DNA from: Prevotellaceae bacterium KH2P17
GTDB taxonomy: Bacteria > Bacteroidota > Bacteroidia > Bacteroidales > Bacteroidaceae
Direction of reading: 5' to 3'
Length of the DNA: 64,000 bases
NCBI GenBank assembly: GCA_900199655.1
Contig: FZRE01000002.1
Span: 62,001 to 126,000 of the forward strand
Shown here piece after piece: positions 44,059 to 62,627 of the stretch. The notes beneath the pieces are model-generated. The model was not told the origin of the DNA. It ran no database searches and saw only the letters and a program-made list of their open reading frames with translations. Positions within the stretch are counted from its first letter, which is position 1. Every line of letters begins with the position of its first letter. Position numbers and translations under genes: made by a program.

Positions 44059-44130
44059 CGAACTTTCGACACTTGTCGCACAATCATTCGACAAGTGTCA
44101 CACAATCGTGCGACAAGTGTCGAAAGTTCA
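44059..44130. repeat. 72-bp triple-palindrome element, copy B2
   Basis: Palindromes start at 44067, 44089 and 44111 (22-bp period). The outer 22-bp arms GAACTTTCGACACTTGTCGC+AC and their complement are a perfect inverted repeat. It lies between the divergent metalloprotease and GH31 genes in a 396-bp gap whose other content is the two promoters. Confidence 0.82.
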
Positions 44131-44279: not shown

Positions 44280-46787
44280 ATGAAGACTCTATTCAGATTA
44301 CTTTTCATGTCATGCTGTGCCGTGTTCGCCCTGCAGGCCAACGCACAGAAAAACGTAGCCTATCAGGACGCGCAGGTGCGCATATCGCTCATTACGGACG
44401 GAGCGGCGAGGCTGGAATATGTACCCGACGGGAAGTTCATGGACGACAACTCGTTCGTTGCCGTGAACCGAGATTACCCCAAAGTAGATTACAAGGTTAA
44501 GACCAGAGGCAAGCAGGTGGAAATCAGAACGGCCCGCATGGTGGTCAGGTACATCAAAGGAAGCGGTAAGTTCACTGCCTCCAACCTTACCATTACTTCG
44601 GTCAAGGGCGCCCGGAAGCCTTTCAGCTGGAAGCCGGGACAGAAGGATGACAAGAACCTGCTGGGCACTTACCGCACCCTGGACGGCTATGACGGCGACT
44701 GGCAGACGTGGGAGAAGCGCAAGATGCCTATCGAGGACGGACTGCTCTCGCGCAACGGATGGACCTTCATCGACGACTCCGAGGGTTATATATACGACCA
44801 CTCCGACTGGCCCTGGATAACGAAACGCCACGAAGAGGGCAACACCCAGGACTGGTACTTCATGGCCTACGGGCTTGACTATAAGCAGGCACTCAAAGAC
44901 TTCACCGTTTTTTCGGGCAAGGTGCCGCTGCCTCCGCGCTACGCTTTCGGCTACTGGTGGAGCCGCTACTGGTCGTACTCGGATGCAGAGCTGCGCGATT
45001 TGGTGCGCAAGTTCCATCAGTATCAGATTCCATTGGACGTTCTGGTCATCGACATGGACTGGCATTACACCGAAGAAGGCAAGGGCGGCTGGACCGGCTA
45101 CACCTTTAACCGCCGCCTGTTCCCCGACCCCGCCAAGTTCCTTGGCTGGCTCAAAGGCAACGACTTGCAGATTACATTCAACCTGCACCCGGCCGACGGC
45201 ATCAAGCATTATGAGGAGCACTACCCCGAAATGGCCAAGTGGATGGGCATAGACCCCGCCACCAAGCAGGACATTCCTTGGCAGGCATCGAGCAAACAGT
45301 TCATGACGGGCTGGTTCAACACCCAACTGCGCCCCATGGAAAAGATGGGGGTAGACTTCTGGTGGCTCGACTGGCAGCAGTGGGGTAACGACAAGCAGTT
45401 CCCCAAACTCAGCAATACGTGGTGGCTCAACTATACGGTATTCACCGACATAGAGCGCAACCGCGACACGCGACCTATGCTCTACCACCGCTGGGGCGGG
45501 CTGGGCAACCACCGTTATCAGATAGGTTTCTCCGGCGACTCGTACATTACGTGGAAGTCACTCGACTTTCAGCCCTACTTCAACGCCACCGCTTCCAACG
45601 TTCTTTATGGCTTCTGGAGCCACGACATAGGCGGACACCAGGGCGCGCCGGGCATCGATCCCGAGCTGTACGTGCGCTGGATGCAGTTCGGAGCGTTCAG
45701 TCCCATCCTGCGTACGCACTCTACCAAGCAGGCCGTTCTCAAGAAGGAGCCTTGGGTTTTCGATAATGAACACTTCGAAATGCTGCGCAACATCGTGCTG
45801 CAACGCTACCGCATGGCGCCTTACGTGTACACCATGGCTCGCAAGACCCACGACGAGGGGCTCTCTCTCTGCCGCCCCATGTACTACGATTACCCTGAAA
45901 ACGAGGAGGCGTACGCCAACAAGGACGAGTACATGTTTGGCGACCAGATGCTGGTTTACCCCATTACGGCGCCCGGAAAGGACGGAGTATCGGAGAAGAA
46001 GGTATGGTTACCGGCCGGCAACGACTGGTTCGAAGCCTCTACGGGCACGCTGCTCAAGGGCGGACAAACCGTTACCCGCTCCTTCCAACTTGACGAGATG
46101 CCGGTCTACATCAAGGCAGGAGCCGTGATACCTGAGTACGGCGAGGTCAAGAACCTGCGCCGCAACGACAACTGCATCACCGTAAACGTGTTCCCGGGGC
46201 AGCGTGGCGAGTTCTGTATGTACGAGGACAACGGCAACGATAAGGACTATGAGAACAACTATGCCACCACAATGCTCTCCTCGGAGCATTCGGGCAACAG
46301 CCTCACCGTGAAGATAGGGGCCCGCAAAGGCAGCTATAAGGACATGCCGGCACAGCGCAGCTTCAAGGTCAAAGTTGTGGCCTCGGCCGTTCCGGAGCGT
46401 GTAACGGTGAACGGAACGGAGGCCGAATACGAGTACGACGGCGAGAACCTGGCGCTCATTATCGACGTGCCGCAGACCGACTGTGCCGCAGAAAAGACCG
46501 TGACCGTTACCTATCCCAAGGATGCGGTCGACGTTGCTGACGGCCTGCTGGCCCAGATGAAGCACGTGCGCAGCGGCATCGTGGCCCTGAAATACAACAA
46601 TGCAGGCATCGTACTCAATGAAGAACTGGGCACGATGGGCTCACTCGGCGAGGCGCTGCAGTATTTCCCCGCCCGCTTCAACGAGCTGGTGAGCGCCTTC
46701 AAGACCAACTACAGCAACCTGCCCGCAATCCTCAAGGCCAACAAGGTGGATGATGCGGCAGCGGCCAAGTTCCTCCGCCTGAAGTAA
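44280..46787 (+). CDS. GH31 alpha-glycosidase (alpha-glucosidase or alpha-xylosidase)
   Basis: The 835-residue secreted enzyme starts at the ATG at 44280 (MKTLFRLLFMSCCAVFALQANA). An N-terminal galactose-mutarotase-like domain precedes the barrel. The nucleophile Asp is in WWLDWQQWG (about residue 364) and the acid/base Asp in GFSGDSY (about 420). Beta-domains follow, plus a helical C-terminal extension of about 90 residues with no match I recognise. It is 20 bp upstream of xylB and shares its promoter. This argues for alpha-xylosidase on xyloglucan fragments. The sequence alone equally allows an alpha-glucosidase that would complement the GH66/GH97 locus. Confidence 0.88.
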   Translation: MKTLFRLLFMSCCAVFALQANAQKNVAYQDAQVRISLITDGAARLEYVPDGKFMDDNSFVAVNRDYPKVDYKVKTRGKQVEIRTARMVVRYIKGSGKFTASNLTITSVKGARKPFSWKPGQKDDKNLLGTYRTLDGYDGDWQTWEKRKMPIEDGLLSRNGWTFIDDSEGYIYDHSDWPWITKRHEEGNTQDWYFMAYGLDYKQALKDFTVFSGKVPLPPRYAFGYWWSRYWSYSDAELRDLVRKFHQYQIPLDVLVIDMDWHYTEEGKGGWTGYTFNRRLFPDPAKFLGWLKGNDLQITFNLHPADGIKHYEEHYPEMAKWMGIDPATKQDIPWQASSKQFMTGWFNTQLRPMEKMGVDFWWLDWQQWGNDKQFPKLSNTWWLNYTVFTDIERNRDTRPMLYHRWGGLGNHRYQIGFSGDSYITWKSLDFQPYFNATASNVLYGFWSHDIGGHQGAPGIDPELYVRWMQFGAFSPILRTHSTKQAVLKKEPWVFDNEHFEMLRNIVLQRYRMAPYVYTMARKTHDEGLSLCRPMYYDYPENEEAYANKDEYMFGDQMLVYPITAPGKDGVSEKKVWLPAGNDWFEASTGTLLKGGQTVTRSFQLDEMPVYIKAGAVIPEYGEVKNLRRNDNCITVNVFPGQRGEFCMYEDNGNDKDYENNYATTMLSSEHSGNSLTVKIGARKGSYKDMPAQRSFKVKVVASAVPERVTVNGTEAEYEYDGENLALIIDVPQTDCAAEKTVTVTYPKDAVDVADGLLAQMKHVRSGIVALKYNNAGIVLNEELGTMGSLGEALQYFPARFNELVSAFKTNYSNLPAILKANKVDDAAAAKFLRLK

Positions 46788-46807
46788 ACGGACGCCAGTC
46801 AGACAGC

Positions 46808-48313
46808 ATGAATATGGAAAAACAATATCTTTTAGGGTTCGATGTGGGCAGCAGCTCTGTCAAGGCATCGCTCGTGGATGCCGACAGCGGCACCTGCGCT
46901 GCTGCCGCATTCTTCCCCCGGACCGAAGCTCCCATCAAGGCGGTAAGGGCCGGATGGGCCGAACAGGACCCGCAGATGTGGTGGGAAAACGCCAAGTTGG
47001 CCCTGCGTAAGGTAATGACCGACGCCGGCGCCACGGCCGACCAGATACGCGCCATCGGTATATCGTACCAGATGCACGGCCTCGTCTGCATTGACAAAGA
47101 CCGCCGGGTGCTGCGCGACAGCATCATCTGGTGCGACTCGCGGGCCGTGCCCTACGGCAACAGAGCTTTCGACGAGCTGGGCTCCGAACGCTGTCTGTCG
47201 CATCTGCTCAACTCTCCCGGCAACTTCACTGCGGCCAAGCTGGCCTGGGTAAAGGAGCATGAGCCGGCTGTGTACGAGCGCATCGACAAGGTCATGTTGC
47301 CCGGCGATTACATTGCCATGATGCTTACGGGCGAGGTGAACACCACCGTGAGCGGCCTCTCCGAAGGCATGTTCTGGGACTTCAAGGAGCAACAGCCGGC
47401 CTGGTTCCTGCTCGATTACTTCGGCTTCGGCCACCAGTTGCTGCCCCATGTGGTGCCTACATTCGCCGTGCAGGGCCAGGTTACGCGCCAGGCAGCACAG
47501 GAGACGGGGCTCCGCGAGGGCACTCCGGTGAGCTACCGGGCCGGCGACCAGCCCAACAACGCACTCAGTCTGAACGTCTTCAACCCCGGAGAAATAGCCG
47601 GAACGGCCGGCACCAGCGGCGTTGTTTACGGCGTGCTGGGCGAGGTGAACTACGACCCAAAGAGCCGCGTAAACACCTTTGCCCACGTAAACTACACCCA
47701 CGAGCAGCCCCGCCTGGGCGTGTTGCTCTGCATCAACGGCACCGGCATACTCAACTCATGGGTGCGCCGAAACGTTGCCACGGAGCCGGCAGGCTATCAG
47801 GAGATGAACGAACTGGCCGCCACAGTGCCCATAGGAGCCGACGGGTTGACGGTTATTCCCTTCGGAAACGGTGCCGAACGCGTGCTCCAAAACCGCGAAA
47901 CGGGCTGTTCCATCCACGGACTGAACTTCAACAAGCACACCCGCGCCCATCTCATGCGAGCCGCTCAGGAGGGCATAGTCTTCAGTTTCTGCTACGGAAT
48001 GGAAGTAATGGGCCGCATGGGCATGGACATCAGCAAGATACATGCAGGCCGGGCGAACATGTTCCTCAGCCCTGTGTTCCGCCAGACGCTGGCCTCCACC
48101 AGCGGCGCCGCCATCGAGTTGTACGAGACCGACGGCAGTGTAGGCGCCGCGAAGGGTGCCGGCATGGGCTGCGGAGTGTACAAGAACCACGACGAGGCCT
48201 TTGCATCACTGAAGCAGCTGGCCGTCATTGAGCCCGACGAGGCGCACCGCGCAGCCTGCCTCGAAGCCTATGGAAGGTGGAAAGAGGTGCTCAGACGAGA
48301 GACGCGGGCATAG
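46808..48313 (+). CDS. xylB: Xylulokinase
   Basis: A 501-residue FGGY-family kinase with [20 protein letters not shown] at the N-terminus, the substrate segment [19 protein letters not shown], the phosphate loop [12 protein letters not shown], and the C-terminal [13 protein letters not shown]. It phosphorylates D-xylulose to xylulose-5-phosphate for the pentose phosphate pathway. The order GH31-xylB-xylA, with 20 and 58 bp gaps, makes one operon for release, isomerisation and phosphorylation of xylose. Confidence 0.93.
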
Positions 48314-48371
48314 CTTCAGGCTCACCGACATGCAATTTTCTATTCCAAATAATTACCTAACAAACAATAAA

Positions 48372-49691
48372 ATGAGTAAAGAGTATTTCCCACAAATTGG
48401 CAAGATTCCCTTCGAGGGACCAGAAAGTAAGAACCCGATGGCTTTCCATTACTACGACGAAAACAAGGTGGTAATGGGCAAACCCATGAAAGACTGGCTC
48501 AAATTTGCCATGGCCTGGTGGCACACACTGGGACAGGCAAGCGGCGACCAGTTTGGAGGACAGACCCGAAAGTATGCCTGGGACGAGGCCGAAACGCCCC
48601 TGCAGCGCGCCAAGGACAAAATGGACGCAGGCTTCGAAATCATGGGCAAGCTCGGCATTCACTACTTCTGCTTCCATGATGTGGACCTGTGTGACGACAC
48701 CGACGACATCAACGAGTACGAAGCCAACATGAAGGCCATTACCGACTACGCCCTGCAGAAGATGCAGGCACAGCCCGACGTGCACCTGCTGTGGGGCACC
48801 GCCAACGTGTTCGGCCACCGCCGGTACATGAACGGAGCCGCTACAAACCCCGACTTCGACGTGGTTGCCCGCGCTGCCGTGCAGATAAAGAACGCCATAG
48901 ACGCCACAATAAAGCTGGGCGGAACCAACTACGTGTTCTGGGGAGGCCGCGAGGGCTACCAGAGCCTGCTAAATACAGAGATGCAGAGGGAGAAAGACCA
49001 CCTGGCCAACATGCTCGCCGCAGCCCGCGACTACGCACGGGCAAAAGGCTTCAAGGGCACCTTCCTCATCGAGCCCAAGCCCATGGAGCCCACCAAGCAC
49101 CAGTATGACGTCGACGTGGAGACGGTTATCGGCTTCCTCCGTGCACACAACCTGGACAAGGACTTCAAGGTAAACATCGAGGTGAACCACGCCACGCTGG
49201 CCGGCCACACCTTCGAGCATGAGCTCGCCGTGGCCGTAGACAACGGCATGCTGGGCTCCATCGACGCCAACCGGGGCGACTATCAGAACGGCTGGGACAC
49301 CGACCAGTTCCCTGTAGACAACTTTGAACTCACCCAGGCCATGATGCAAATCATCCGCAACGGCGGCCTCGGCAACGGCGGAAGCAACTTTGACGCCAAG
49401 CTGCGCCGCAACTCCACCGACCCCGAGGATATCTTCATAGCCCACATCTGCGGTATGGATGCCATGGCGCGCGCACTGGAGAACGCCGCAACCATACTGG
49501 AGCAGAGCCCGCTGCCCAAGATGGTAAAGGACCGTTACGCCAGCTTCGACGCCGGCAAGGGCAAGGAGTTTGAGGACGGCAAGCTCTCTCTCGAAGACCT
49601 GGTGGCCTACGCCAAGGAGCACGGAGAGCCCCGACAGACCTCCGGCAAGCAAGAACTGTACGAAACCATCGTGGCTCTTTACAGCAAGTAA
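48372..49691 (+). CDS. xylA: Xylose isomerase
   Basis: A 439-residue class II xylose isomerase from the ATG at 48372 ([20 protein letters not shown]). The frame is open further upstream, but that part overlaps xylB. Active-site segments are [25 protein letters not shown] (catalytic His), [49 protein letters not shown] and [19 protein letters not shown] (metal ligands). It converts D-xylose to D-xylulose in the cytosol. Last gene of the operon, closed by the terminator at 49728. Confidence 0.97.
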
Positions 49692-49727
49692 CGGGCACGT
49701 CAGCGCTCCGCACGCTACTATATAATA

Positions 49728-49776
49728 AGGTGCATTCCCACACCCTTCAATCCTGAAGGCGGGAATGCACCTTTTT
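49728..49776 (+). terminator. Intrinsic terminator after xylA
   Basis: Perfect 12-bp stem (AGGTGCATTCCC, 49728-49739 with 49761-49772), an inner CTTCA/TGAAG hairpin in the loop, then five T. Confidence 0.92.
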
Positions 49777-49810
49777 CTTTGCTTCTTCTGTTACCACCCG
49801 CTGCCACGTT

Positions 49811-49954
49811 ATCATCCCCTCCTCCGCCTCCCCTTTCCAAGGGGAGGATACCGGTTTGTCTCTTTGCGATATATCCTTTAAAGGCTGTTTCTTGTTAGTG
49901 GAAATGCAGCTGATGGTTCCTCACCTTAGAAAGGGGAGGTTAGGAGGGGATGAT
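49811..49954. repeat. 144-bp MITE-like element, copy C2
   Basis: Ends ATCATCCCCTC and GAGGGGATGAT, with inner CCTCCCCTTTCCAAGGGGAGG at the left and a decayed AGAAAGGGGAGG at the right. It is the same length as C1 (24551) but has a different middle. It fills the gap between xylA and ybeY, close to the ybeY stop. Confidence 0.7.
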
Positions 49955-49978
49955 GGACCGGAGAACAGAGCCTTGCCG

Positions 49979-50407
49979 CTACCGGGCAGGCATGGAGCGG
50001 AGCATGTCGAGGGCGGCATTCTCGGCCGCTTCCATGACCTCACGCTCGCCGGGGCCCTTGTCGTTGATGCCGCACAGGTGCAGCACTCCGTGTATGATGA
50101 CGCGGTGCAGTTCGTCGGCATACTCCTTGCCGAACTGCTCGGCGTTGGTGCGAACGGTGTCCAGAGAGATTACGATGTCGCCGTTGATGACGTCGCCCTC
50201 ATCGTAATCGAAGGTGATGATGTCCGTATAGTAATCGTGGCCCAGGTATTCGTTGTTCACCTCGAGTATCTTCTCGTCGCTCACGAACATGTAGCCAATC
50301 TCCCCCACCTTGCGTCCGTAGGTGGCGGCCACGGCCTTAATCCAGGCCGTAGTGGCCCGTTTCCTGATGTCCGGCATCTTAACGCCGTCTGCGTTGTATG
50401 TTATCAT
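49979..50407 (-). CDS. ybeY: Endoribonuclease YbeY (16S rRNA maturation / ribosome quality control)
   Basis: The 142-residue protein has the UPF0054 core (MFVSDEKILEVNNEYLGHDY then DIITFDY) and the metal motif HGVLHLCGINDKG. The third zinc ligand, His in E. coli (HGxLHLxGYDH), is Asp here; I believe this variant is common in Bacteroidetes, but that needs an alignment. The start codon overlaps the coaD stop by 4 bp (ATGA), so the two are translationally coupled. Confidence 0.92.
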   Translation of the reverse strand: MITYNADGVKMPDIRKRATTAWIKAVAATYGRKVGEIGYMFVSDEKILEVNNEYLGHDYYTDIITFDYDEGDVINGDIVISLDTVRTNAEQFGKEYADELHRVIIHGVLHLCGINDKGPGEREVMEAAENAALDMLRSMPAR

Positions 50408-50883
50408 TCTGCTTCGCTGTTAGCTGTTGTTTCATCGTTCTTCTTTGGAACGAAGGCCGAAGTGTCCTTGCCGAAGTGCTTCATCTCCCTTACCAGCGTG
50501 GAACTGATGCCCTGCAGCGCGGGCTCCGTAAAGAGCAGGAGCGTTTCTACGCCGCCCATGGTGCGGTTAAAGTCGGCCTGGTCGCGCTCGTACTCAAAGT
50601 CTCTGACGTTGCGCACGCCCTTGATGAGGAACCCGGCGCCCACCCTTTGGGCCAGGTCTATGGCCAAATCGGCGTACGCCACGACCTCTATGCGGGGCTC
50701 GTCGGCATAGATTTCCTTGATTGCCTGCACGCGCTGCTCGCTCGTAAAGGCGTATTTCTTCTCCGGGTTCACGCCCACGCCGATTACGATTTTATCGAAC
50801 AGCGGCAGCGCCCGCCTCACCACGGAATGGTGCCCGATGGTGTAGGGGTCGAAACTTCCTACAAACAGTCCTGTCTTCATCAT
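50404..50883 (-). CDS. coaD: Phosphopantetheine adenylyltransferase
   Basis: A 159-residue enzyme of coenzyme A synthesis, joining ATP and 4'-phosphopantetheine to make dephospho-CoA. It carries GSFDPYTIGHHSVVRRA (nucleotidyltransferase TxGH), the substrate segment IKGVRNVRDFEYE, and the ISSTLVRE C-terminal motif. The start is one of two adjacent ATGs (50883, 50880). A TTG further upstream overlaps the promoter box TACTTTTG (50903-50896) and is rejected. Head of the coaD-ybeY operon. Confidence 0.95.
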   Translation of the reverse strand: MMKTGLFVGSFDPYTIGHHSVVRRALPLFDKIVIGVGVNPEKKYAFTSEQRVQAIKEIYADEPRIEVVAYADLAIDLAQRVGAGFLIKGVRNVRDFEYERDQADFNRTMGGVETLLLFTEPALQGISSTLVREMKHFGKDTSAFVPKKNDETTANSEAE

Positions 50884-50895
50884 CTTGTTTTGATG

Positions 50896-50903
50896 CAAAA
50901 GTA
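50896..50903 (-). promoter_or_regulatory. -7 box of the coaD-ybeY operon
   Basis: TACTTTTG on the minus strand, ending 12 bp before the ATG at 50883, so a leader of about 7 nt. Confidence 0.55.
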
Positions 50904-51015
50904 CAATATTTATTTGAATTGCGTAACTATTCGGCCAACAAATTCGGCAGGCCGTAGCATGGCGGAGGAATGGTGCTGCCTACTGCCCTGCCGGCAGGGG
51001 CCCGGACGGAGGTGC

Positions 51016-51096
51016 CGTTCAAGGAGCTTGAAGCATATCTCCAAGGCTGCCGAATGGCACCTCCAAGGGGCTTGAACGATACATCTTCCGCAGCGC
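51016..51096. repeat. CTTCAAG-type intergenic repeat, copy A6
   Basis: GTTCAAG (51017-51023) and CTTGAAC (51071-51077) form the outer ends, with GAGCTTGAAGCATATCT and CTCCAAGGGG between. Member of the A family. Confidence 0.6.
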
Positions 51097-51149
51097 CTTT
51101 GTACAGGCGGTTCTGTGAAGGATGGCTAAACAGGCTGCCGGGGATGATA

Positions 51150-51233
51150 ATCAGAGGTACAGCACGGCCTCGTTGCCCTCGTTGAAGAGCAGGTCGAGGA
51201 TGCTGAGGTTGGGCAGGAAGCCGTGGCGGAGGC
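51150..51233 (-). pseudogene. Remnant of the wbqC-like 3' end (84-bp direct repeat, left copy)
   Basis: Identical at 83 of 84 positions to 53543-53626, the 3' end of the WbqC-family gene, in the same orientation. On the minus strand it encodes RHGFLPNLSILDLLFNEGNE followed by AVLYL and the stop. Upstream the similarity ends abruptly at AGCAACTTG. It is therefore a truncated copy, and with the intact gene it brackets the secreted protein and peptide cassette. Confidence 0.9.
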
Positions 51234-51239
51234 AGCAAC

Positions 51240-51454
51240 TTGTTAATTTATTTATACTTTTCAAATCAACAAACTGATGTTAAAATAAAGTGCGAAAAAC
51301 TTATAAAAAGTTAACGGAAATCATATTTTCAGCCCTAAATCATCCAACCTAACAAAATAAAAGCTAATATTGCGGTAAATTGTATTTACCGAACTAAGTT
51401 GACCACACACTGCTTTTTAAAGGAGAGTTAATATAATTTTTAAATACAACGCTT
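51240..51454 (+). promoter_or_regulatory. AT-rich upstream region of the cassette with an 8-bp inverted repeat
   Basis: This 215-bp stretch is clearly more AT-rich than the rest of the window. CGGTAAAT (51373-51380) and ATTTACCG (51384-51391) form a perfect inverted repeat with a 3-nt spacer, a candidate operator. No canonical TAnnTTTG box is clear. Confidence 0.45.
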
Positions 51455-53089
51455 ATGAGAAACAATTTACGTTTAATTGTGTCAGTCCTCGCAGGGTTAT
51501 GCTCTACAGGCTTGATGGCTCAAGTTACATCAATTACTGACGGATACTATCGTATCAAGAACGCTGCAACCCGTGCGGACGGAAAGCAGTATGTGTACGT
51601 TACAGGCAAGTACGAAGCTCAGCCCAACGCCACTCACGACGAGGCTGTGACGCTTCCCGGCACCGTTATTCACCTCAATGTAGCCGACACTACCATCAAT
51701 GCAGAGGCCGTGTACAATGTAAAAACACTTCGCTCGCAGGGCGTCGACGTCATCAACGGGTACCTGCTGCCGGCACTGGACAAGGTGCGTACGGAGCTGA
51801 AAGCTAAGCTAAAAGAGAAATTGGGCAGTGATGCTCTTGCGCAATTCGCCTATAGCATCTTTGAGAACGATGTCCTTGACAAGTGGGATCTGAACATGCA
51901 CATGAAGCCGGTTACTACCAGCGACGGCCGTGCAGCCTACTATGCGTACGCCACAGTGCCGTCTATGCAGCCGCTGGTTGACTTCTGGAAGACTTGGGGT
52001 CCATTCGCCGGAGGTGCCCTGGACTCATATCCTGACTTGAAAGCAGCGCTTGAACGCGGCGACGCTACGGCAACCTGGAAGGCCGTGGAACAGCTGGCTT
52101 ACGGGAAGATAGTTGCCACCTTCGGCGCCGACAATGCCATGACGCAACTCGTAAAGGGATATATCGACAACGATCGCATACACAACGGCATGACCTACTA
52201 CCTCATCTCGGGCGGCATCAACAAAGTAGATACGAACCAAACTGCCTACGATCCGAACAATCCTACAGGCACCGCACACAACGAATACGACGGTTCAAAA
52301 GCTGAATTCGACTTTGCCAACAACAACGCCGACAACTACTGGGGCCCCGAACTGCCTGCAGCAGGCGATGCCGGCATGTGGATATTGGAGAAAGTTGACG
52401 CTGACAATTACTTCAGCGTGAAGCCTTCGGCCAAGATGAAGGGCCTCAACGGCAAGTACTACACCACCCTCTACACCGACTTCCCGTTCCAGATTGTGGG
52501 CGACATGACGGCCTACACCATTGAAGGCGTGAACGAGAAAGATGCCAATGGCTACGCTTTCGCCCGCGTAAAGAGCCTCGGCGGAGCAGGAACTGTTGTG
52601 CCTGCGCAGACTGCAGTGGTGCTGGAGTGCCCGTCGGAGAACGTGGCCGACAACCAACTGCTGCCCACCGGGACGGAAGAACCTGCCACCAGCAGCAACC
52701 GACTGTGCGGTAACTTCTTCGCGACAGCCATCAGCGGCATGACTGCTACTGACGGCACAGGGGCCACTCATGCCGTTACGTACAGCAACCTGCGCGCTTT
52801 CAACATCAGTACCAGCGATGCCAAGAACCCCATAGGCTTCTATAAGGTGAGCAGCAACGTAACAACCATTCCGGGTAACAAGGCTTTTCTCGTGCTTACC
52901 GATGCCGAGGCACAGGCCAAAGGCTTCTACCTCATGTTCGAGGACGGCTCTACAACGGGCATAGAGCAGATAGAAACGCCTGCCGAAAACCTGAACCATG
53001 CCGTTATCTACGACCTGCAGGGCCGCCGAGTGACAAATCCGGGCAAGGGCATCTACATCGTGAACGGAAAGAAAGTTATCATTAAATAA
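51455..53089 (+). CDS. Secreted protein of unknown function with C-terminal sorting-like tail
   Basis: A 544-residue protein with a signal peptide (MRNNLRLIVSVLAGLCSTGL then MAQ). The body starts ITDGYYRIKNAATRADGKQY, a form common in secreted Prevotella proteins, and contains no catalytic motif I recognise. The last 80 residues end IYDLQGRRVTNPGKGIYIVN then GKKVIIK. This resembles the type IX secretion C-terminal signal seen in Prevotella, so export and possibly surface attachment are inferred. A 65-residue peptide gene follows after 19 bp. The unit lies between the two 84-bp repeats. Confidence 0.75.
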   Translation: MRNNLRLIVSVLAGLCSTGLMAQVTSITDGYYRIKNAATRADGKQYVYVTGKYEAQPNATHDEAVTLPGTVIHLNVADTTINAEAVYNVKTLRSQGVDVINGYLLPALDKVRTELKAKLKEKLGSDALAQFAYSIFENDVLDKWDLNMHMKPVTTSDGRAAYYAYATVPSMQPLVDFWKTWGPFAGGALDSYPDLKAALERGDATATWKAVEQLAYGKIVATFGADNAMTQLVKGYIDNDRIHNGMTYYLISGGINKVDTNQTAYDPNNPTGTAHNEYDGSKAEFDFANNNADNYWGPELPAAGDAGMWILEKVDADNYFSVKPSAKMKGLNGKYYTTLYTDFPFQIVGDMTAYTIEGVNEKDANGYAFARVKSLGGAGTVVPAQTAVVLECPSENVADNQLLPTGTEEPATSSNRLCGNFFATAISGMTATDGTGATHAVTYSNLRAFNISTSDAKNPIGFYKVSSNVTTIPGNKAFLVLTDAEAQAKGFYLMFEDGSTTGIEQIETPAENLNHAVIYDLQGRRVTNPGKGIYIVNGKKVIIK

Positions 53090-53108
53090 GTAAGGGAGGA
53101 AACGAAAT

Positions 53109-53306
53109 ATGAAAAAGACATATCTATTACCCGCATGTGAGATAGTGAAGCTGAACCTTGGCGACCAACTGCTGGACGACAAGTTCGGTAATCAGAGCGG
53201 CGTTCCCGTAGGCGGCGATGAAGAAGTAGGAGGCTTCGAGTCGAAGCCGGGCAAATTCTTTGAAACCGAGGAACTGCCCAAATACGATGTCTGGGAGCAA
53301 CAGTAG
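53109..53306 (+). CDS. Small peptide (65 aa) of the MKK..PxxE type, function unknown
   Basis: Starts MKKTYLLPACEIVKLNLGDQ, with no signal peptide, and continues with a polar Gly/Glu-rich tail (PVGGDEEVGGFESKPGKF). Such short proteins are common beside secreted-protein genes in Prevotella but have no known function. It has one cysteine. It lies 19 bp after the secreted protein gene and is followed by a strong terminator, so the two form one unit. The N-terminal leader-like part followed by a small variable tail recalls ribosomal peptide precursors, but no maturation enzyme is nearby. Confidence 0.65.
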   Translation: MKKTYLLPACEIVKLNLGDQLLDDKFGNQSGVPVGGDEEVGGFESKPGKFFETEELPKYDVWEQQ

Positions 53307-53341
53307 CAGTTGCCCTGCGGCTTGCAGGCCGTCCCGGTAAC

Positions 53342-53393
53342 AAGCCCCGCTTCCGCCTTTCGTTCAAGTAAAGGCCGGAGCGGGGCTTTTCTT
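53342..53393 (+). terminator. Intrinsic terminator of the cassette
   Basis: Long GC stem, AAGCCCCGCTTCCGCCTTT (53342-53360) with 53370-53388, one or two mismatches, then a T-rich run. It ends the secreted protein and peptide unit. Confidence 0.88.
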
Positions 53394-53437
53394 GCGGTCT
53401 CGTTTGCACCCTTTCGGGGAAAGAAAGCAGGCTTGCG

Positions 53438-53509
53438 GGAACTTTCGACAAGTGTCGCACGATTATCAGACAGGTGTCACACATTCGTTCGACACTTGTC
53501 GCAAGTTCC
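53438..53509. repeat. 72-bp triple-palindrome element, copy B3
   Basis: GGAACTTT, palindromes at 53446, 53468 (AGACA variant) and 53490 (22-bp period), end GCAAGTTCC. It lies between the convergent peptide gene and wbqC-like gene. Confidence 0.8.
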
Positions 53510-53543
53510 AAGAAGATACATTCGGGTTGTTTTTTTGTGCTTA

Positions 53544-54203
53544 TCAGAGGTACAGCACGGCCTCGTTGCCCTCGTTGAAGAGCAGGTCGAGGATGCTGAG
53601 GTTGGGCAGGAAGCCATGGCGGAGGCGGTAGACCTGGTAGTAAGGGCGGGGCCGGAAGGCGGCATCGGGCAGGGGATGCTTGGGGCGGATGGCGTCGCGG
53701 AAATCGGCGAAGGGCGCCGCGGGCTGGCTTTCCGGGCTGCAGCTGCCCTCGGGAGCGGGCGCATCGGCCGTGCCTACGTACGTTTCGGTAGGCCTGATGG
53801 TGGGCTCTATGTCGAGCAACCGGCAGATGCAGTGCGTAAGCTCGAGGTTGAAATCGAAGAGAAACTCCCACTTGCGCTCGAAGAAAGGGCGCAGGTCGTC
53901 GGCATAGTAATCAAAGAACGGGCTCTCGCCGTAGGCCGAGAGCAGCGCGTTCCAGTGCAGGTGGCGCCAGTTGCCGTGGTTGCTGATGCGTACGTCGCGC
54001 ATCAGGCACTTCGCATTCTCGTACCTTTGAATGGGCACGGTGAGCGTCTGCGGGCCGTTGACGGCCGCTATGACGCAGCGGTTGCGGTAGGTCTGCTTCA
54101 CGTAGTTGTCGTGGCGCTCGAGCAGGCACACGTCGTATCGGACCAGCTTCTGGTACCACTGCACGGGCCCGAAGTAGGTGGAAGAAAGCAGGGCTGTGGT
54201 CAT
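53544..54203 (-). CDS. WbqC-family protein
   Basis: A 219-residue protein from the ATG at 54203 (MTTALLSSTYFGPVQWYQKL), matching the WbqC-like family (YVKQTYRNRCVIAAVNGPQT, HLHWNALLSAYGESPFFDYY). Relatives occur in O-antigen loci and are sometimes called glycine or aminotransferase-like, but no reaction is established. An open frame continues upstream inside the signal peptidase gene and is not used. The start overlaps that gene by 4 bp. The 3' end is duplicated at 51150. Confidence 0.85.
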   Translation of the reverse strand: MTTALLSSTYFGPVQWYQKLVRYDVCLLERHDNYVKQTYRNRCVIAAVNGPQTLTVPIQRYENAKCLMRDVRISNHGNWRHLHWNALLSAYGESPFFDYYADDLRPFFERKWEFLFDFNLELTHCICRLLDIEPTIRPTETYVGTADAPAPEGSCSPESQPAAPFADFRDAIRPKHPLPDAAFRPRPYYQVYRLRHGFLPNLSILDLLFNEGNEAVLYL

Positions 54204-54718
54204 GGGATGGGGCGTAGCAGGCGGTCGCGGCGCAGGTGGTAGCCGTCGAGGTTGTAAACCACAACGAATGCGCGGCCAATAATGTTGCGTTCGGGTACCA
54301 GCAGCTGGCTGCGGCCGGCGGCGGAGTGGACCAGATAGTGGCTGCGGACTGCGTACTCGCACAGCTGACAGTCGGCGGGAATGACGAAAGCCTTGCCGTA
54401 GGCCGTGATGGTATCGCCCGGAACGGCGCACACGCGGCCCAGGAGCACGCAGCTGTTGAGGCTGTCGGGGTTGTCGAAAGCAATGAAGTCGCCCTTGCGC
54501 ACGGGCCTTCTCATCACGCGCGAGTATCTGAAGAAGGAGCTGCCTCCGGTGCGCAGGCCATAGCTCCAGCGGTTCACCATCACCCTGTCGCCCCGGAGCA
54601 GCTGTGGCTCCAGGCTCTTGTCAGGTACTGTGTAGATGGTGAATGCCAGGGCGCGAAAGACCAGCATGAGCAAGCAAGTGACCAGTAGCGCCATCAGAAA
54701 CTTGAAGGCATTCCTCAT
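54200..54718 (-). CDS. Short signal peptidase I paralog lacking the catalytic lysine
   Basis: The 172-residue S26-family protein has one N-terminal membrane helix (FKFLMALLVTCLLMLVFRAL), box B with the nucleophile Ser35 (VPDKSLEPQLLRGDRVMVNR), and box D/E (VLLGRVCAVPGDTITAYGKA). In E. coli LepB the general base Lys145 stands in YIKRAVGLPGD; the matching position here is Gly94. The neighbouring full-length LepB keeps this lysine (YVKRCVGLPG). It may be inactive, work as a partner of LepB, or use another base. It starts 4 bp from the lepB stop. Confidence 0.82.
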   Translation of the reverse strand: MRNAFKFLMALLVTCLLMLVFRALAFTIYTVPDKSLEPQLLRGDRVMVNRWSYGLRTGGSSFFRYSRVMRRPVRKGDFIAFDNPDSLNSCVLLGRVCAVPGDTITAYGKAFVIPADCQLCEYAVRSHYLVHSAAGRSQLLVPERNIIGRAFVVVYNLDGYHLRRDRLLRPIP

Positions 54719-54722
54719 GTTT

Positions 54723-56171
54723 CTATTTGATATCGTCGACCCAGCGGAACAGTCGGCTCCACCGAACGCCTCCGAAGCCCTTGCGGTCGGGGTCGGAAGA
54801 CCACCAGATGAAGATAGGCTTGCCCACGATATGGTCCTCGGGCACGAAGCCCCAGTAGCGTGAGTCGGCCGAGTTGTGGCGGTTGTCGCCCATCATCCAG
54901 TAGTAGTCCATCTTGAAAGTATAGCTGTGGGCGAGCCGTCCGTTGATGTAAATCTGGTTGTTCTTAACGGTCAGCTCGTTGTTCTCGTACACCCGGATGG
55001 GGCGCTCGTAGAGGGCGATGTTCTTCAGGCTTAGCTGCACGGTGGCTCCTCGCTTGGGTATCCACACGGGTCCGTAGTTGTCGCGCGTCCAGCCGGTAAC
55101 GGCGTTGAGCGGATAGAGGTCGCCCGTGGTGGCATCTGTATTCAGTCGGATGCTCTGCACCAGGTCCTTGCGGCCCTTGAGATAAGCCACGGCGTGTTTC
55201 GTAAGGGGCATGTAGCCGCTCTGGTTCAGGCTCGTGAGGTCTTCCATCGAGATGCCGAGCTCCTTCAGCACATCGTCGGGGATGTCCCGTTTCAGCTTCA
55301 CGTAGTAGGTGTACTGCACGTTCTCGGGCTCTTTGTTGGGCTTGCCGTCGAGGTACACGATGCGGTTCTTAATCTGGAGTGTCTGCCCCGGCAGTCCCAC
55401 ACAGCGCTTGACGTAGTTCTCGCGGCGGTCGGTGGGCCGGCTGCTGATGTCGCCGTACTCGTTTGGATTGTTGGCTATGTAGTTTCGCCCGATGGCATAA
55501 AGGCGGGCGAAGTAATCGTGCTGTTCCTGTGCATTGAGCGTCGAGGGGTCTACGGGGTTGGGATTGTTCTGCTGGTCAATCTGCTGACCGAAGGAATAGG
55601 CCATCTGGTAGAAGTCTGCTGCCTGCCACCGTTCCTCGCTCACGATGGTATCGCCGGCGGGATAGTTGAACACCACGATGTCGTTCAGCTTCACATGGCC
55701 CAGCCCCTTCACGCGTCTGTAGTCCCAGTGGGGCCAGTCTATGTAGCTTTTAGTCTTGATAATGGGCAGCGTGTGCTGTGTAAGCGGCATGGTGAGGGGG
55801 GTCTGCGGGATGCGCGGACCGTAGCTCACCTTGCTCACGAAGAGGTAATCGCCGGTGAGGAGGCTCTTCTCCAGCGATGATGAAGGGATGACGTAGTTCT
55901 GGAAAAAGAACTGGTTGATGAAGTAGACGGCCACCAACGCGAACACCAGTGCATCGACCCAGCTCATCAGGAAGCGCACAGGGCGCTCGCTGTCTTTCCA
56001 CCATTGCCAGCGTATTCGTTTGGTTATATAAGCGTCGTAGATAAAAGGAACGACGATTAAGCCCCACCAACTCTTCACCCAAAAGAGGAAGATGAGATAC
56101 AAAAGCAGTACAATGGCAAACTTGGCCCATTGTACCTTCATGTTCAGTTGCCTTTTTTCCTTGTCAATCAT
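54723..56171 (-). CDS. lepB: Signal peptidase I (large Bacteroidetes form)
   Basis: A 482-residue enzyme with two or three N-terminal membrane helices. The catalytic Ser is in IPSSSLEKSLLTGDYLFVSK and the Lys in NYVKRCVGLPGQTL. A C-terminal box MMGDNRHNSADSRYWGFVPE follows. It cleaves signal peptides of exported proteins at the periplasmic face. It is longer than E. coli LepB (324) because of an insertion between the two catalytic boxes (about 155-250), usual in this phylum. It lies in an operon with dapB upstream and the short paralog downstream. Confidence 0.95.
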   Translation of the reverse strand: MIDKEKRQLNMKVQWAKFAIVLLLYLIFLFWVKSWWGLIVVPFIYDAYITKRIRWQWWKDSERPVRFLMSWVDALVFALVAVYFINQFFFQNYVIPSSSLEKSLLTGDYLFVSKVSYGPRIPQTPLTMPLTQHTLPIIKTKSYIDWPHWDYRRVKGLGHVKLNDIVVFNYPAGDTIVSEERWQAADFYQMAYSFGQQIDQQNNPNPVDPSTLNAQEQHDYFARLYAIGRNYIANNPNEYGDISSRPTDRRENYVKRCVGLPGQTLQIKNRIVYLDGKPNKEPENVQYTYYVKLKRDIPDDVLKELGISMEDLTSLNQSGYMPLTKHAVAYLKGRKDLVQSIRLNTDATTGDLYPLNAVTGWTRDNYGPVWIPKRGATVQLSLKNIALYERPIRVYENNELTVKNNQIYINGRLAHSYTFKMDYYWMMGDNRHNSADSRYWGFVPEDHIVGKPIFIWWSSDPDRKGFGGVRWSRLFRWVDDIK

Positions 56172-56178
56172 TGCTGTG

Positions 56179-56934
56179 TCAGAATTTGAACAAATCAGAT
56201 GTAGTTAGTAATCCGGTATGGTTTTGCGTGTACTCTGCAGCCAGGACGGCTCCCAGAGCGAAGCCTTTGCGGCTGTGGGCATCGTGGGTTATGGTGATGC
56301 GGTCGGCCTCGGAGTCGTACGTTACGGTATGAATGCCGGGCACTTCTCCACGGCGCACGCTGTCTATAGCTATCTCATCGGGCGCCGCCTCGGCCTTGCC
56401 GGTCGTGGTGCCGTCGGCTGCCAGGAAGGTTCCCTTTACCCAGGAAGACTTGCGGTCGAGGCTATCGACAATGTCCTCGGCCAGCGTGATGGCCGTTCCC
56501 GACGGCGCATCGAGCTTGTGTACGTGGTGAGTTTCCTCCATGCGGACATCGTACTGCGGGAACGCATTCATGATGCGGGCCAGATACTTGTTGACAGCAG
56601 CGAAGATGGCCACGCCTATACTGAAGTTTGAAGCCCAAAAGAGAGTCTGCTTGCCGTCGCGGGTCAGCGCCTCCACTTCGGCCTTGTGGTCCTTCATCCA
56701 GCCCGTAGAACCGCTCACGACCTTCACGTTGTGGCTGAACGCACGCAGGTAGTTGGCGTATGCCGAGGTAGGATTGGTAAACTCAATGGCTACATCCGCC
56801 GATGCAAATTCAGGCGAGTCGAAATCCTCCTGATTGTCAACATCAATGATACTGACAATCTGGTGGCCACGGTCTTTGGCTATTTGTTCTATCATCTTGC
56901 CCATCTTGCCGTAGCCGATTAAAGCAATCTTCAT
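56179..56934 (-). CDS. dapB: 4-hydroxy-tetrahydrodipicolinate reductase
   Basis: A 251-residue NAD(P)H-dependent enzyme of lysine and diaminopimelate synthesis. The start is MKIALIGYGKMGKMIEQIAK, with an ATG two codons upstream (56940) also possible; further upstream codons lie beyond the promoter TATCTTTG (56965-56958). Motifs are the nucleotide loop GYGKMGKM, SGSTGW, and the active site ETHHVHKLDAPSGTA. First gene of the operon dapB-lepB-lepB paralog-wbqC-like. Confidence 0.96.
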   Translation of the reverse strand: MKIALIGYGKMGKMIEQIAKDRGHQIVSIIDVDNQEDFDSPEFASADVAIEFTNPTSAYANYLRAFSHNVKVVSGSTGWMKDHKAEVEALTRDGKQTLFWASNFSIGVAIFAAVNKYLARIMNAFPQYDVRMEETHHVHKLDAPSGTAITLAEDIVDSLDRKSSWVKGTFLAADGTTTGKAEAAPDEIAIDSVRRGEVPGIHTVTYDSEADRITITHDAHSRKGFALGAVLAAEYTQNHTGLLTTSDLFKF

Positions 56935-56957
56935 ATTCATTCGAATTAAATATTCCG

Positions 56958-56965
56958 CAAAGATA
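56958..56965 (-). promoter_or_regulatory. -7 box of the dapB-lepB operon
   Basis: TATCTTTG on the minus strand, 17 bp before the ATG at 56940. Confidence 0.6.
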
Positions 56966-57009
56966 ACGATTTTTTCTCGCTTACACCTAACTATTACGAA
57001 TTTTTTATG

Positions 57010-57017
57010 TAGCTTTG
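57010..57017 (+). promoter_or_regulatory. -7 box of the DUF2851 gene
   Basis: TAGCTTTG, 27 bp before the ATG at 57045. Confidence 0.6.
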
Positions 57018-57044
57018 CATTCATAAATAGACCGTAAACAGCGC

Positions 57045-58382
57045 ATGGAGGAACTGTTACATTACTGCTGGAAACACAGGCTCTTCCCCTTGGGAGACAT
57101 GGAAACGACCGGACACAAGACCGTAGAAGTGATTGACCCGGGGCTCCACAACACGAACGCCGGCCCCGACTTCTTCAATGCCAAGGTAAAGATTGACGGC
57201 ACGGTGTGGGTGGGCAACGTTGAAATACACGACAAGGCCAGCGACTGGTTTGTCCATGGACACGACCGTGACGCCCACTACGACAACGTAATCCTGCACG
57301 TGGCAGGCGTCATTGATGCCCAGGCACGCACCCACTCGGGGCAGTTGCCGCCGCAGATGCAGCTCAGCGTGCCCGCTGCAGTAAGCAAGCAGTACCGCGA
57401 ATTGCTCACTATCGACCGCTATCCGCCCTGCTACGCCATCATTCCCCGCCTCAGCCGGCTCACCGTACACAGCTGGATGAGCGCCCTGCAGACCGAAAGA
57501 CTGGAGCAGAAGACCGCTGCCATCAAGGCGCGGGTGGCCGATTGCAACGGCGACTGGGAAGCTGCATACTTCGTGACCTTGGCCCGCAACTACGGCTTCG
57601 GCATCAACGGCGAGGCCTTCGAGGCCTGGGCACGCTCCGTGCCGCTATCTGCCGTGGCCCACCATCGCGACGACTTGTTCCAGACAGAGGCCATCTTCAT
57701 GGGCCAGGCCGGACTTCTTGAGCCTGAATCCATTCCCTCCCGCCACCGCGAAGAGGCGCTACGCGACCCTTACTTCATCCGACTGAGCGCCGAGTACGCC
57801 TATTTGAGCCATAAATTCGGGCTCAAACCCATTGATTACAGGCTGTGGCGCTTCCTCCGACTGCGGCCTGCCAACTTCCCGCACATACGCATCGCCCAGC
57901 TTGCCAACCTCTACTACCACCGCCAGGCGGGGCTAAGCAGCCTCGTGGAGTGCGAAACCGCGGAGCAGATGAGGCAGCTGCTGAAGTCGGCCGTCACACC
58001 TTACTGGCGCACGCACTACGGCTTCGGCACGCCCAGTGCCAAGAGCGAGAAGAGCCTCTCGCCAGCTTCGCTGAACCTGCTCATGATAAACACCGCCATT
58101 CCCATGCTCTTTGCGTACGGCCGCCACTTGCTGAACGAGGCGCTGTGCGACCGTGCCTTCGACTTTCTGGAGCAGCTGAAAGCCGAAAACAACCACATTG
58201 TAAGGATGTGGCAGGACTGTGGCATGCCCGTTGAAAACGCCGGCGACTCGCAGGCACTCATCCAACTGAAGGCGCAATACTGCGACCGCAAGGACTGCCT
58301 GCGGTGCAGGATAGGCTACGAGTATTTAAAAGCAAAGACAAGAACGACCCCTCCCGGCCTCCCCGAAGGAGAGGAGTTGTAA
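57045..58382 (+). CDS. DUF2851 family protein
   Basis: A 445-residue protein of the Bacteroidetes family DUF2851, with the N-terminus EELLHYCWKHRLFPLGDMET, then NTNAGPDFFNAKVKIDGTVW and GNVEIHDKASDWFVHGHDRD. The GPDF and EIH-D pattern resembles a PD-(D/E)XK nuclease-like core, so a nuclease role is possible but unproved. The C-terminal CxxxxCLRC (DRKDCLRCRIGYEYL) is conserved-looking. The last 12 residues (TTPPGLPEGEEL) are encoded by a CCCTCCCGGCCTCCCCGAAG-type repeat that has run into the gene. Confidence 0.85.
   Translation: MEELLHYCWKHRLFPLGDMETTGHKTVEVIDPGLHNTNAGPDFFNAKVKIDGTVWVGNVEIHDKASDWFVHGHDRDAHYDNVILHVAGVIDAQARTHSGQLPPQMQLSVPAAVSKQYRELLTIDRYPPCYAIIPRLSRLTVHSWMSALQTERLEQKTAAIKARVADCNGDWEAAYFVTLARNYGFGINGEAFEAWARSVPLSAVAHHRDDLFQTEAIFMGQAGLLEPESIPSRHREEALRDPYFIRLSAEYAYLSHKFGLKPIDYRLWRFLRLRPANFPHIRIAQLANLYYHRQAGLSSLVECETAEQMRQLLKSAVTPYWRTHYGFGTPSAKSEKSLSPASLNLLMINTAIPMLFAYGRHLLNEALCDRAFDFLEQLKAENNHIVRMWQDCGMPVENAGDSQALIQLKAQYCDRKDCLRCRIGYEYLKAKTRTTPPGLPEGEEL
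58347..58378. repeat. CCCTCCCC-type repeat inside the DUF2851 3' end
   Basis: CCCCTCCCGGCCTCCCCGAA followed by GGAGAGGAG, a decayed copy of the hairpin seen at 35681 and 35752. It provides the final codons of the gene. Confidence 0.7.
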
Positions 58383-58420
58383 CCTGCAATCCATCATCCA
58401 ACATCAAATAACAGATAAGA

Positions 58421-58870
58421 ATGAACGATACAACACAGTCTCCTACCCCCCGCGAAGGCCGGAAGAAGCCCCCCTACATCTACGAAACGCGCATGGAAGT
58501 GCGTGATTACGAGTGCGACATACAGGGTATTGTGAACAATGCCAACTACCTGCACTACATCGAACACACCCGCCACCTCTTCCTGCTCTCCACGGGCTTG
58601 AGCTTCTCCAAGATGCACGAGCAGGGCGTAGACGCCGTGGTGGCGCGCATGAACCTGCAGTACAAGACGCCGCTCAGGTGCGACGACGAGTTCATCTCGC
58701 GCCTGGGACTGCGCAAGGAGGGCCTGCGCTACGTCTTCAACCAGGACATCTACCGCGCCGTCGACGAGCGTCTGTGCTTCAAGAGTACCGTCGAACTGGT
58801 GTGCCTCATCAACGGTCGGCTGGGCAACAGCGATGACTACGACCGCGCCTTTGCCCCCTATCTGAAGTAA
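58421..58870 (+). CDS. Acyl-CoA thioesterase (4HBT hotdog family)
   Basis: The 149-residue single hotdog domain has the 4-hydroxybenzoyl-CoA-thioesterase signature DIQGIVNNANYLHYIEHTR at residues 35-53 and KTPLRCDDEFISRLGL on the core strand. It probably hydrolyses an acyl-CoA; the substrate is unknown. It lies between DUF2851 (38 bp) and dprA (6 bp) on the same strand. Confidence 0.85.
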   Translation: MNDTTQSPTPREGRKKPPYIYETRMEVRDYECDIQGIVNNANYLHYIEHTRHLFLLSTGLSFSKMHEQGVDAVVARMNLQYKTPLRCDDEFISRLGLRKEGLRYVFNQDIYRAVDERLCFKSTVELVCLINGRLGNSDDYDRAFAPYLK

Positions 58871-58876
58871 AACGGC

Positions 58877-60004
58877 ATGGACCAGCAGGAAATCATCAAC
58901 ACCATAGCCCTCACGCGCATCAACTACTTCAACCTTGCGGGCATGCTCGAGCTGTACCGCCGGCTCGGTTCGGCAACGGTGGTGTTCGAGCATCGCAACG
59001 ACATACGCGACATTCTGCCCGATGCCTCGCCCCGACTCGTGGCTGCCTTCAGAGATGTGGCGGAGCCGCTGCACCGTGCCGAGGCCGAGTTTGAGTGGGA
59101 CCAGCAGCACGGAGTGCAGCCGCTGTGCCTCTCGGACGACCGTTATCCGCAGCGGATGAAGGACTGCGCCGACGCTCCCCTTGTGCTCTTCTACCGCGGA
59201 ACGGCCAACCTGAATCAGCCGAAGGTGGTGTGCATCGTCGGAACACGCCACTGCACGGCCTACGGACAGGACCTCGTGCGCCGCTTCATGGCCGAGTTGC
59301 GGGCCTTGTGCCCGTCAGTGCTCATCGTGAGCGGGCTGGCCTACGGCATCGATATCCATGCTCACCGCAACGCACTGGCCAATGGATACCCCACGGTGGG
59401 CGTGTTGGCACACGGGCTCGACGACCTCTACCCGCCCCACCACCGACAAACGGCCGATGAAATGGTGGAAAACGGCGGATTGATAACCGAGTTCCTGACC
59501 TGCACCAACGCCGACAAGATGAACTTCGTAAGGCGCAACCGCATCGTTGCCGGCATCTCCGACGCCTGCATCCTCGTAGAGAGTGCGGCCAAGGGTGGCG
59601 GCCTCATCACCTGCGGTATTGCCCAGAGCTACGGCCGCGACGTGTTTGCATTCCCCGGAAATGTAAGCGCCACGTACAGCCAAGGATGCAACAACCTTAT
59701 CCGCGACAATGGTGCAGCGCTCATATCCGGCGCCGCCGACTTCGTGAAAGCCATGGGATGGCAGGACGATGCCGCCCTGCAGAAGGCCCGGGCAGAGGGC
59801 ATTGAGCGCCAGCTTTTTCCCGATCTCTCGGCCGAGGAGCAGCAGATAGTCGGCCTGCTGCAGCGCACCAACGACCTGCAGGTAAACATCCTGGCCGCCC
59901 GCACCGGCCTTCCCGTGGGCCGGCTCACGGCTCTTCTCTTCGCTCTCGAGATGAAGGGAGTTGTCCGCACGCTTGCCGGCGGCATGTACCACCTGCTGGG
60001 TTGA
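58877..60004 (+). CDS. dprA: DNA processing protein DprA
   Basis: A 375-residue protein with an N-terminal helix-hairpin/SAM-like part, the Rossmann DprA core (VCIVGTRHCTAYG, VSGLAYGIDIHAHRNAL, VLAHGLDDLYPPHHR, FVRRNRIVAGISDACILVES) and a C-terminal winged helix (GLPVGRLTALLFALEMKGVV). It loads RecA onto incoming single-stranded DNA in natural transformation. Start 6 bp after the thioesterase stop. Confidence 0.95.
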   Translation: MDQQEIINTIALTRINYFNLAGMLELYRRLGSATVVFEHRNDIRDILPDASPRLVAAFRDVAEPLHRAEAEFEWDQQHGVQPLCLSDDRYPQRMKDCADAPLVLFYRGTANLNQPKVVCIVGTRHCTAYGQDLVRRFMAELRALCPSVLIVSGLAYGIDIHAHRNALANGYPTVGVLAHGLDDLYPPHHRQTADEMVENGGLITEFLTCTNADKMNFVRRNRIVAGISDACILVESAAKGGGLITCGIAQSYGRDVFAFPGNVSATYSQGCNNLIRDNGAALISGAADFVKAMGWQDDAALQKARAEGIERQLFPDLSAEEQQIVGLLQRTNDLQVNILAARTGLPVGRLTALLFALEMKGVVRTLAGGMYHLLG

Positions 60005-60092
60005 GGCCTCTCTTACGGCTTCCGCACCCGCGGCGGATAGGTAAGAAGAGAATAAAAACAGGCGTACAGTCGTGCAACTGCCGACAAATTGC

Positions 60093-60100
60093 TACCTTTG
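60093..60100 (+). promoter_or_regulatory. -7 box of dusB
   Basis: TACCTTTG, 9 bp before the ATG at 60110, implying a leader of only a few nucleotides. Confidence 0.55.
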
Positions 60101-60109
60101 TAGCCGGAA

Positions 60110-61201: not shown

Positions 61202-61313
61202 ACCGTCAGGACGCAGGGCGAAACGGCTCTACGCACAGCCCGAGAAAAGGTTCCGGAGGGCCGGCAGGGGCCACTTTTCGGCCGCAAAACCGCCGGGTTA
61301 CAAATAAAATCAG

Positions 61314-61321
61314 TATCTTTG
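61314..61321 (+). promoter_or_regulatory. -7 box of ruvB
   Basis: TATCTTTG, 28 bp before the ATG at 61350. Confidence 0.6.
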
Positions 61322-61349
61322 CCAAAACAAAAAAGGACAAGGAAACGGA

Positions 61350-62384: not shown

Positions 62385-62465
62385 CGGGAGCACCGGCCGC
62401 GGATGACGGCGGCCCCAATCAAGAGTGGCGCAAACCCCGGCTGCGGGTGCTGCTGTTGCCCTTCA

Positions 62466-62537
62466 GGAACTTTTGACAAGTGTCACACGGTTGTTTGACA
62501 ATTGTCGCACGATCTTTCGACACTTGTCGAAAGTTCC
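62466..62537. repeat. 72-bp triple-palindrome element, copy B4
   Basis: GGAACTTT, units at 62474 (TGACA), 62496 (TGACA) and 62518 (CGACA), exact 22-bp period, end GAAAGTTCC. It lies between ruvB and nrfH in a 350-bp gap whose other content is the two inverted repeats and promoter below. Confidence 0.8.
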
Positions 62538-62627
62538 CCGAAACCGTGTTCCTTACCACTTGCAGGCACGTGCAGCAACCCGGGAAAACATCATGAAGAG
62601 GGAAATTGCAGACTGGCGGAGGCCGTG

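Follow-up and report, generated by a model that had tools for sequence, protein, structure and literature searches.

Elements that integrate at the 3' ends of genes, such as e14 in icd, duplicate their attachment site, and the cargo of type IX secretion bears a C-terminal sorting domain. Among dispersed repeats, the P. intermedia/nigrescens group-specific repeat (PINSR) is described as lineage limited and intergenic, with 177 to 184 copies, and the same paper reports an involvement of mobile elements and repeats in genome rearrangement (PMC4755523). Here, we analyzed a stretch of 64,000 nucleotides (the window) from Prevotellaceae bacterium KH2P17 (contig FZRE01000002.1, positions 62,001 to 126,000), in which the interval between coaD and wbqC has points of likeness to all of these systems. 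Between two direct copies of the wbqC 3' end, it holds a gene pair encoding a 544-aa secreted-type protein and a 65-aa acidic small protein, followed by a palindromic dispersed element.

Like e14-like elements, the locus has a direct repeat that comprises the 3' end and the stop codon of a gene, which is left whole; it differs from them in that no mobility gene was recognised and no such repeats were found at the six other loci of the gene pair that were checked. The 544-aa protein resembles type IX cargo in its signal-peptide-like start, its C-terminal GRRV...KGIYIVNGKKVIIK tail and the presence of SprA in the genome, but it matches no sorting-domain model and is partnered with a conserved acidic small protein. 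PINSR and the palindrome found here are both lineage-limited, amplified dispersed repeats, with a link to rearrangement that is reported for PINSR and proposed for the palindrome, whereas PINSR is 188 bp long and has no terminal inverted repeats and the element here is a palindrome of ca. 72 bp with three GACANNTGTC sites in 22-bp steps.

A sequence-only reading of this DNA had proposed a cassette inserted at the 3' end of wbqC. In the light of relatives, what had been suspected to be a mobile cassette is now a probable junction of a rearrangement, a reminder that, when a single genome is read, an inversion can mimic an insertion. Our account as a whole, in which a conserved operon sits at the junction of a rearrangement and the 84-bp copy of the wbqC end is a scar, is one for which we see even chances. 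Both the gene pair and the palindrome are of greater interest than the 84-bp repeat.

Gene order on both sides of the interval

Re-inverting one block, from wbqC to ruvB (ca. 53.5 to 62.45 kb), restores the neighborhoods wbqC-nrfH and ruvB-coaD together, and for this reason the coaD-wbqC interval is likely an inversion junction. The putative inverted block (53510 to 62465) contains wbqC, two lepB genes, dapB, a DUF2851 gene, a thioesterase-like gene, dprA, dus and ruvB. At its left end lies wbqC (53544 to 54203, minus strand, 219 aa), an identification backed by Pfam (PF08889, E=1.2e-38), and beyond the interval come coaD (50404 to 50898, minus strand) and then ybeY (49979 to 50407). At the right end, ruvB (61350 to 62384, plus strand) stands ahead of nrfH and the start of nrfA, which exits the window (62735 to 63998, plus strand; Pfam identities).

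In order to compare gene order, we used genus samples that were a subset of a larger group. For coaD, 29 loci outside the own genome were returned from 55 matched genomes (the own one included), with ca. 1.5 kb on either side; 21 of them had ruvB, the usual neighbor of coaD in relatives, upstream of coaD and on its strand, at gaps of 3 to 1181 bp. For wbqC, 70 of the 80 named loci (the best 80 of 426) had at least 3 kb downstream, and five of these 70 showed nrfH and then nrfA downstream of wbqC. The order dapB-lepB-wbqC was widely conserved. A single strand of L225 carries DUF2851-thioesterase-dprA-dus-ruvB-coaD-ybeY, with 1.8 kb from dus to ruvB, and 4 of 13 loci share with the window the divergent arrangement of DUF2851 and dapB (3.8 kb apart in one of them).

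Judging from this gene order, the ancestor would have been ybeY-coaD-ruvB-dus-dprA-...-dapB-lepB-lepB-wbqC-nrfH-nrfA, and one inversion of ca. 9 kb, from wbqC to ruvB, would be the simplest account of the present arrangement, placing the wbqC 3' end by coaD and ruvB by nrfH. A palindrome copy is observed at each end of the block (53438 to 53509 at the left end and 62466 to 62537 between ruvB and nrfH), and the inversion may have proceeded by recombination or breakage at these two copies. The conserved secreted-protein/small-protein unit, with its own AT-rich leader, would have ended up at the junction, and a recent single local event, for example template switching in repair near the palindrome, may then have copied 84 bases of the wbqC end past the operon.

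Several observations weigh against this account. Eight of the 29 coaD loci had no ruvB in the 1.5-kb flank, the nrfH neighborhood of wbqC is supported by five loci, and 47 of the 70 wbqC loci had none of the 15 other window genes tested within 3 kb downstream. Three loci (L099, L103 and L120) read wbqC-ruvB-coaD-ybeY on one strand and allow an alternative start, in which ruvB moved alone, without inversion; from this order, the place of ruvB between dus and nrfH would need a separate event. With 82% identity and no shared exact run of more than 21 bases, the block-end palindromes are weak partners for homologous recombination, and the five contig ends near palindromes described below make assembly trouble possible. 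The template-switch step is a conjecture. Lastly, among the matches listed from a search of 398 genomes, the best wbqC identity was 75%, with no close relative in the sample, and since the sampled relatives are distant, the order of the proposed steps cannot be fixed.

The comparison that the sequence-only reading proposed takes for granted that relatives possess a coaD-wbqC interval. In 5 of the 70 loci, coaD lay at most 3 kb downstream of wbqC, on the same strand in the three just named, which have ruvB in between, and on the opposite strand in the other two (L105 and L129). As a separate observation, gene order on the 3' side of wbqC was highly variable among Prevotella-like genomes (L059 to L138).

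The palindrome has four copies in the window (24771 to 24842, 44060 to 44129, 53438 to 53509 and 62466 to 62537), each with the three sites in exact 22-bp steps. The own genome has 159 occurrences of its pattern, versus a single one in 1 of 119 further genomes sampled from the genus, while the same pattern written backwards, used as a control, gave none in the own genome and one each in two others. A plasmid search with the palindrome gave no match. Given that the two block-end copies are only 82% alike and that their longest identical run in the BLAST pieces is at most 21 bases, plain homologous recombination between them is not obvious; hairpin breakage would be an alternative. The element resembles an operator array or a lineage-spread repeat, and it would be a good case in which to study the spread of a short operator-like repeat and its reshaping of the genome.

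The palindromes may also hinder assembly. Five contig ends (G000 contigs C2, C3, C29, C35 and C36) lay within ca. 250 bp of a palindrome copy among those listed, where simple arithmetic (159 copies, 3.3 Mb, 80 ends) predicts ca. 1. This excess, in a draft of 40 contigs, would fit an artefact, in which short reads were misjoined at palindromes or the 84-bp repeat was misresolved, and the true genome may keep an ancestral order or have an empty site and, apart from it, a circle of 2.4 kb; by reasoning, the integrated form and the circle would give the same sequence graph. However, no exact run common to the block-end palindromes exceeds 21 bases and the 84-bp copies can be told apart at one base, so ordinary reads should separate these repeats, and the assembly is 99.93% complete with 0.19% contamination. 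We consider an artefact improbable.

The duplicated 3' end of wbqC

Comparison of the window with itself by BLAST confirmed the direct repeat of the sequence-only reading: 51150 to 51233 and 53543 to 53626 are identical at 83 of 84 bases (98.81%) in direct orientation, starting at the wbqC stop codon. A search for direct repeats in 46000 to 60000 (ungapped, with an exact 12-base seed) extended the pair to 51145 to 51233 and 53538 to 53626, with 97% identity over 89 bases, and reported it as the sole direct repeat family of at least 25 bases in that range. A repeat of 84 bases is far too long to be due to chance. That the duplicated DNA is the wbqC 3' end, as had been claimed, was borne out as well. 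Copy 2 (minus strand), found by both BLAST and the repeat search, lies in intact wbqC and consists of the final 83 bases of the gene, including its stop codon (53544 to 53546), plus one base. In the wbqC frame, both copies read LRHGFLPNLSILDLLFNEGNEAVLYL* (26 residues and the stop), and the single mismatch between them is synonymous (CAC/CAT). Copy 1 (minus strand) amounts to 27 codons, stop included, detached from any gene, and its right edge adjoins the AT-rich leader of the operon directly.

A wbqC match was present in 56 of 60 genomes, and among these 60, in which second partial copies could be read, a separate one occurred in the window's own genome only. The ancestor with two full wbqC copies, which the sequence-only reading had named as the sign of simple gene decay, was not seen among these genomes. 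That the copies differ by one silent change points to a recent origin of copy 1. It also follows from the sequence, as had been pointed out, that exact recombination between the copies leaves wbqC whole, so a homologous deletion between them is possible and wbqC would survive it.

If a staggered-break inversion had been the source of the duplicate, the wbqC end should recur beside ruvB. BLAST found no match to it at 62300 to 62800, the ruvB-nrfH end of the block, and this source was rejected. Because the copy is absent from the other block end, the inversion did not make the 84-bp copy; its direct orientation and the 2.4-kb distance argue for a local event at a time when wbqC and the operon were already neighbors. 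Copy 1 would be a scar rather than an attachment site. In principle, the observed sequence could arise from a templated repair copy, from an insertion that duplicated the target end or from a tandem duplication that was later partly lost. We prefer the templated copy, since the insertion would have occurred without a recognised mobility gene and the tandem duplication requires two events.

For the tandem duplication, the operon would already have been beside wbqC; a segment running from the leader through the last 84 bases would have been duplicated and the outer unit mostly deleted, with copy 1 left behind. The direct contact between the right edge of copy 1 and the leader is what a tandem junction would give. 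Yet, besides the two events, the deletion would have had to end by chance at the stop codon, and the spacer between coaD and copy 1 (50899 to 51149) held no remnant of a second operon when the window was compared with itself by BLAST, matching instead another dispersed element of the genome. This course of events seems to us highly improbable. The second dispersed element, at 50985 to 51124, is GC rich with imperfect inverted repeats. The genome search, in which 40 of 163 candidates received a score, gave 42 additional matches to it, with some sites counted once on each strand.

A conserved pair of genes

The contents listed by the sequence-only reading were found in place, except that its strong terminator was seen by eye and not by the scan. 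Past copy 1 comes the AT-rich 5' region of the secreted-protein gene (51234 to 51454, plus strand, 27% G+C), with no other match in the genome search, and then the open reading frame (ORF) of the 544-aa protein (51455 to 53089, plus strand), with a signal-peptide-like N terminus, read by eye, and the C-terminal tail YDLQGRRVTNPGKGIYIVNGKKVIIK. The 65-aa ORF follows (53109 to 53306, plus strand), and behind it a GC-rich hairpin (ca. 53342 to 53389, plus strand) that we read by eye as the probable operon terminator. The terminator scan did not report this hairpin, whose loop of 10 nt falls outside its limits of 3 to 8; it reported one terminator (53380 to 53395), fewer than the mean of 3.2 in shuffles. 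The palindrome closes the series.

The supposed cassette is a conserved two-gene unit. Relatives of the 65-aa gene were found in 31 of 398 genomes, the own one included, and they form a family of acidic proteins of about 50 to 85 aa that end in W plus acidic residues and share the pattern MKK.Y..P.C.V..L......LD...FGN.S..PVG. Of 36 places matched, 30 became loci, namely, the own one and 29 others that cover 29 of the 35 non-own places. The small-protein gene sits after an ORF bearing the C-terminal tail (counted if at most 350 bp upstream) in 25 of these 29 loci, including L185, where the ORF view confirmed the pair, and the gap between the two was 12 to 24 bp in 19 of the 25. Among the remaining four, L192 ends at a contig edge, L194 and L197 have no tail-bearing ORF in view, and L189 has one ca. 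420 bp upstream with another small ORF in between. Three of four relatives had an AT-rich leader as well.

Distances within both families correlate (Mantel rho, 0.79; 0 of 2,000 permutations) over 23 rows, comprising the window and 22 of the 29 loci, a value to which species relatedness, which was not corrected for, also contributes. Seven loci in which the pair was offset, missing or weakly alike (L185, L189, L192, L194, L196, L197 and L198) did not enter the test, a choice that favors it.

The neighbor genes of the pair vary between loci. Neither the 29 coaD loci nor the first 3 kb downstream of wbqC at the 70 wbqC loci held a relative of either gene. The inserted cassette of the sequence-only reading was therefore supported in one respect, the extra DNA at the junction, while its mobility was not borne out. 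In the form considered here, the operon would have arrived as a unit at the wbqC 3' end, with duplication of the target end, for instance on a circle or on transforming DNA that brought a wbqC end along, or as what is left of an integrative element that has lost its integrase, and the repeats would be its ends. The absence of relatives beside wbqC and coaD in the loci examined fits this, as do the patchy distribution of the small-protein gene and its relatives and a G+C content at third codon positions of 0.66, below the 0.75 to 0.87 of four neighbor genes. The repeat, moreover, starts with the stop codon and restores the end of the gene in the manner of the attachment sites of 3'-end elements. 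Against it, the Pfam, NCBIfam and PHROGs scans recognised no integrase, transposase or phage family in the interval, and exact 16-mers in flanks of up to 2.5 kb (larger loci) revealed direct repeats around the pair in none of six other loci. The usual target duplications of transposons are far shorter than 84 bp, and transposition with target duplication was rejected on the grounds of this length and of those six loci. Viral contigs held no relative of the pair, and the plasmid collection gave one partial match in one record of 1.77 Mb (33% identity over 37% of the query). All in all, we judge arrival by insertion unlikely. An origin from phages, plasmids, defence systems or RNA elements was likewise unsupported by the viral contigs, the plasmid collection, PHROGs, PADLOC, Rfam (no match over 50800 to 54300) and NCBIfam.

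Neither gene of the pair matched Pfam, PHROGs or PADLOC, and their one match in NCBIfam was at chance level (14.6 of 131 bits, far below the cutoff). Pfam also gave no match for ten overlapping ORFs in the interval and at its edges. A phmmer search of the 544-aa protein against the PDB returned a single match (E=0.71), and its single-sequence AlphaFold2 model was uninformative (mean predicted local distance difference test score, 33.8). A literature search found nothing on the coaD-wbqC locus or on the gene pair.

The start and the tail of the 544-aa protein make it a probable type-IX-type secreted protein. SprA, the only component of the type IX system searched for, is encoded in the genome (2669.9 bits, above the cutoff). 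Given that no C-terminal sorting-domain model of Pfam or NCBIfam matches the protein, we do not claim its membership in the type IX cargo. We offer, tentatively and with considerable doubt, the idea that the pair is a two-part system new to the curated libraries searched, in which a type IX-type secreted protein would have a cognate acidic small protein that escorts it, regulates it or protects against it; the two would move between chromosomal sites as one unit, which the 84-bp repeat would make losable by a single homologous deletion sparing wbqC. Should the pair be functionally coupled, a class of secreted proteins of Bacteroidota that is absent from these libraries would gain a small-protein partner.

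Two further observations concern the pair in other genomes. At L237 and L238, it is accompanied by genes that, from their ORF lists, we take to be transporter-like and QueF-like. In L182 (G192:C12:24911 and 26992), two small-protein genes lie at a distance of ca. 2 kb and a second ORF of the secreted-protein family starts between them; this locus is likely a tandem array of the pair.

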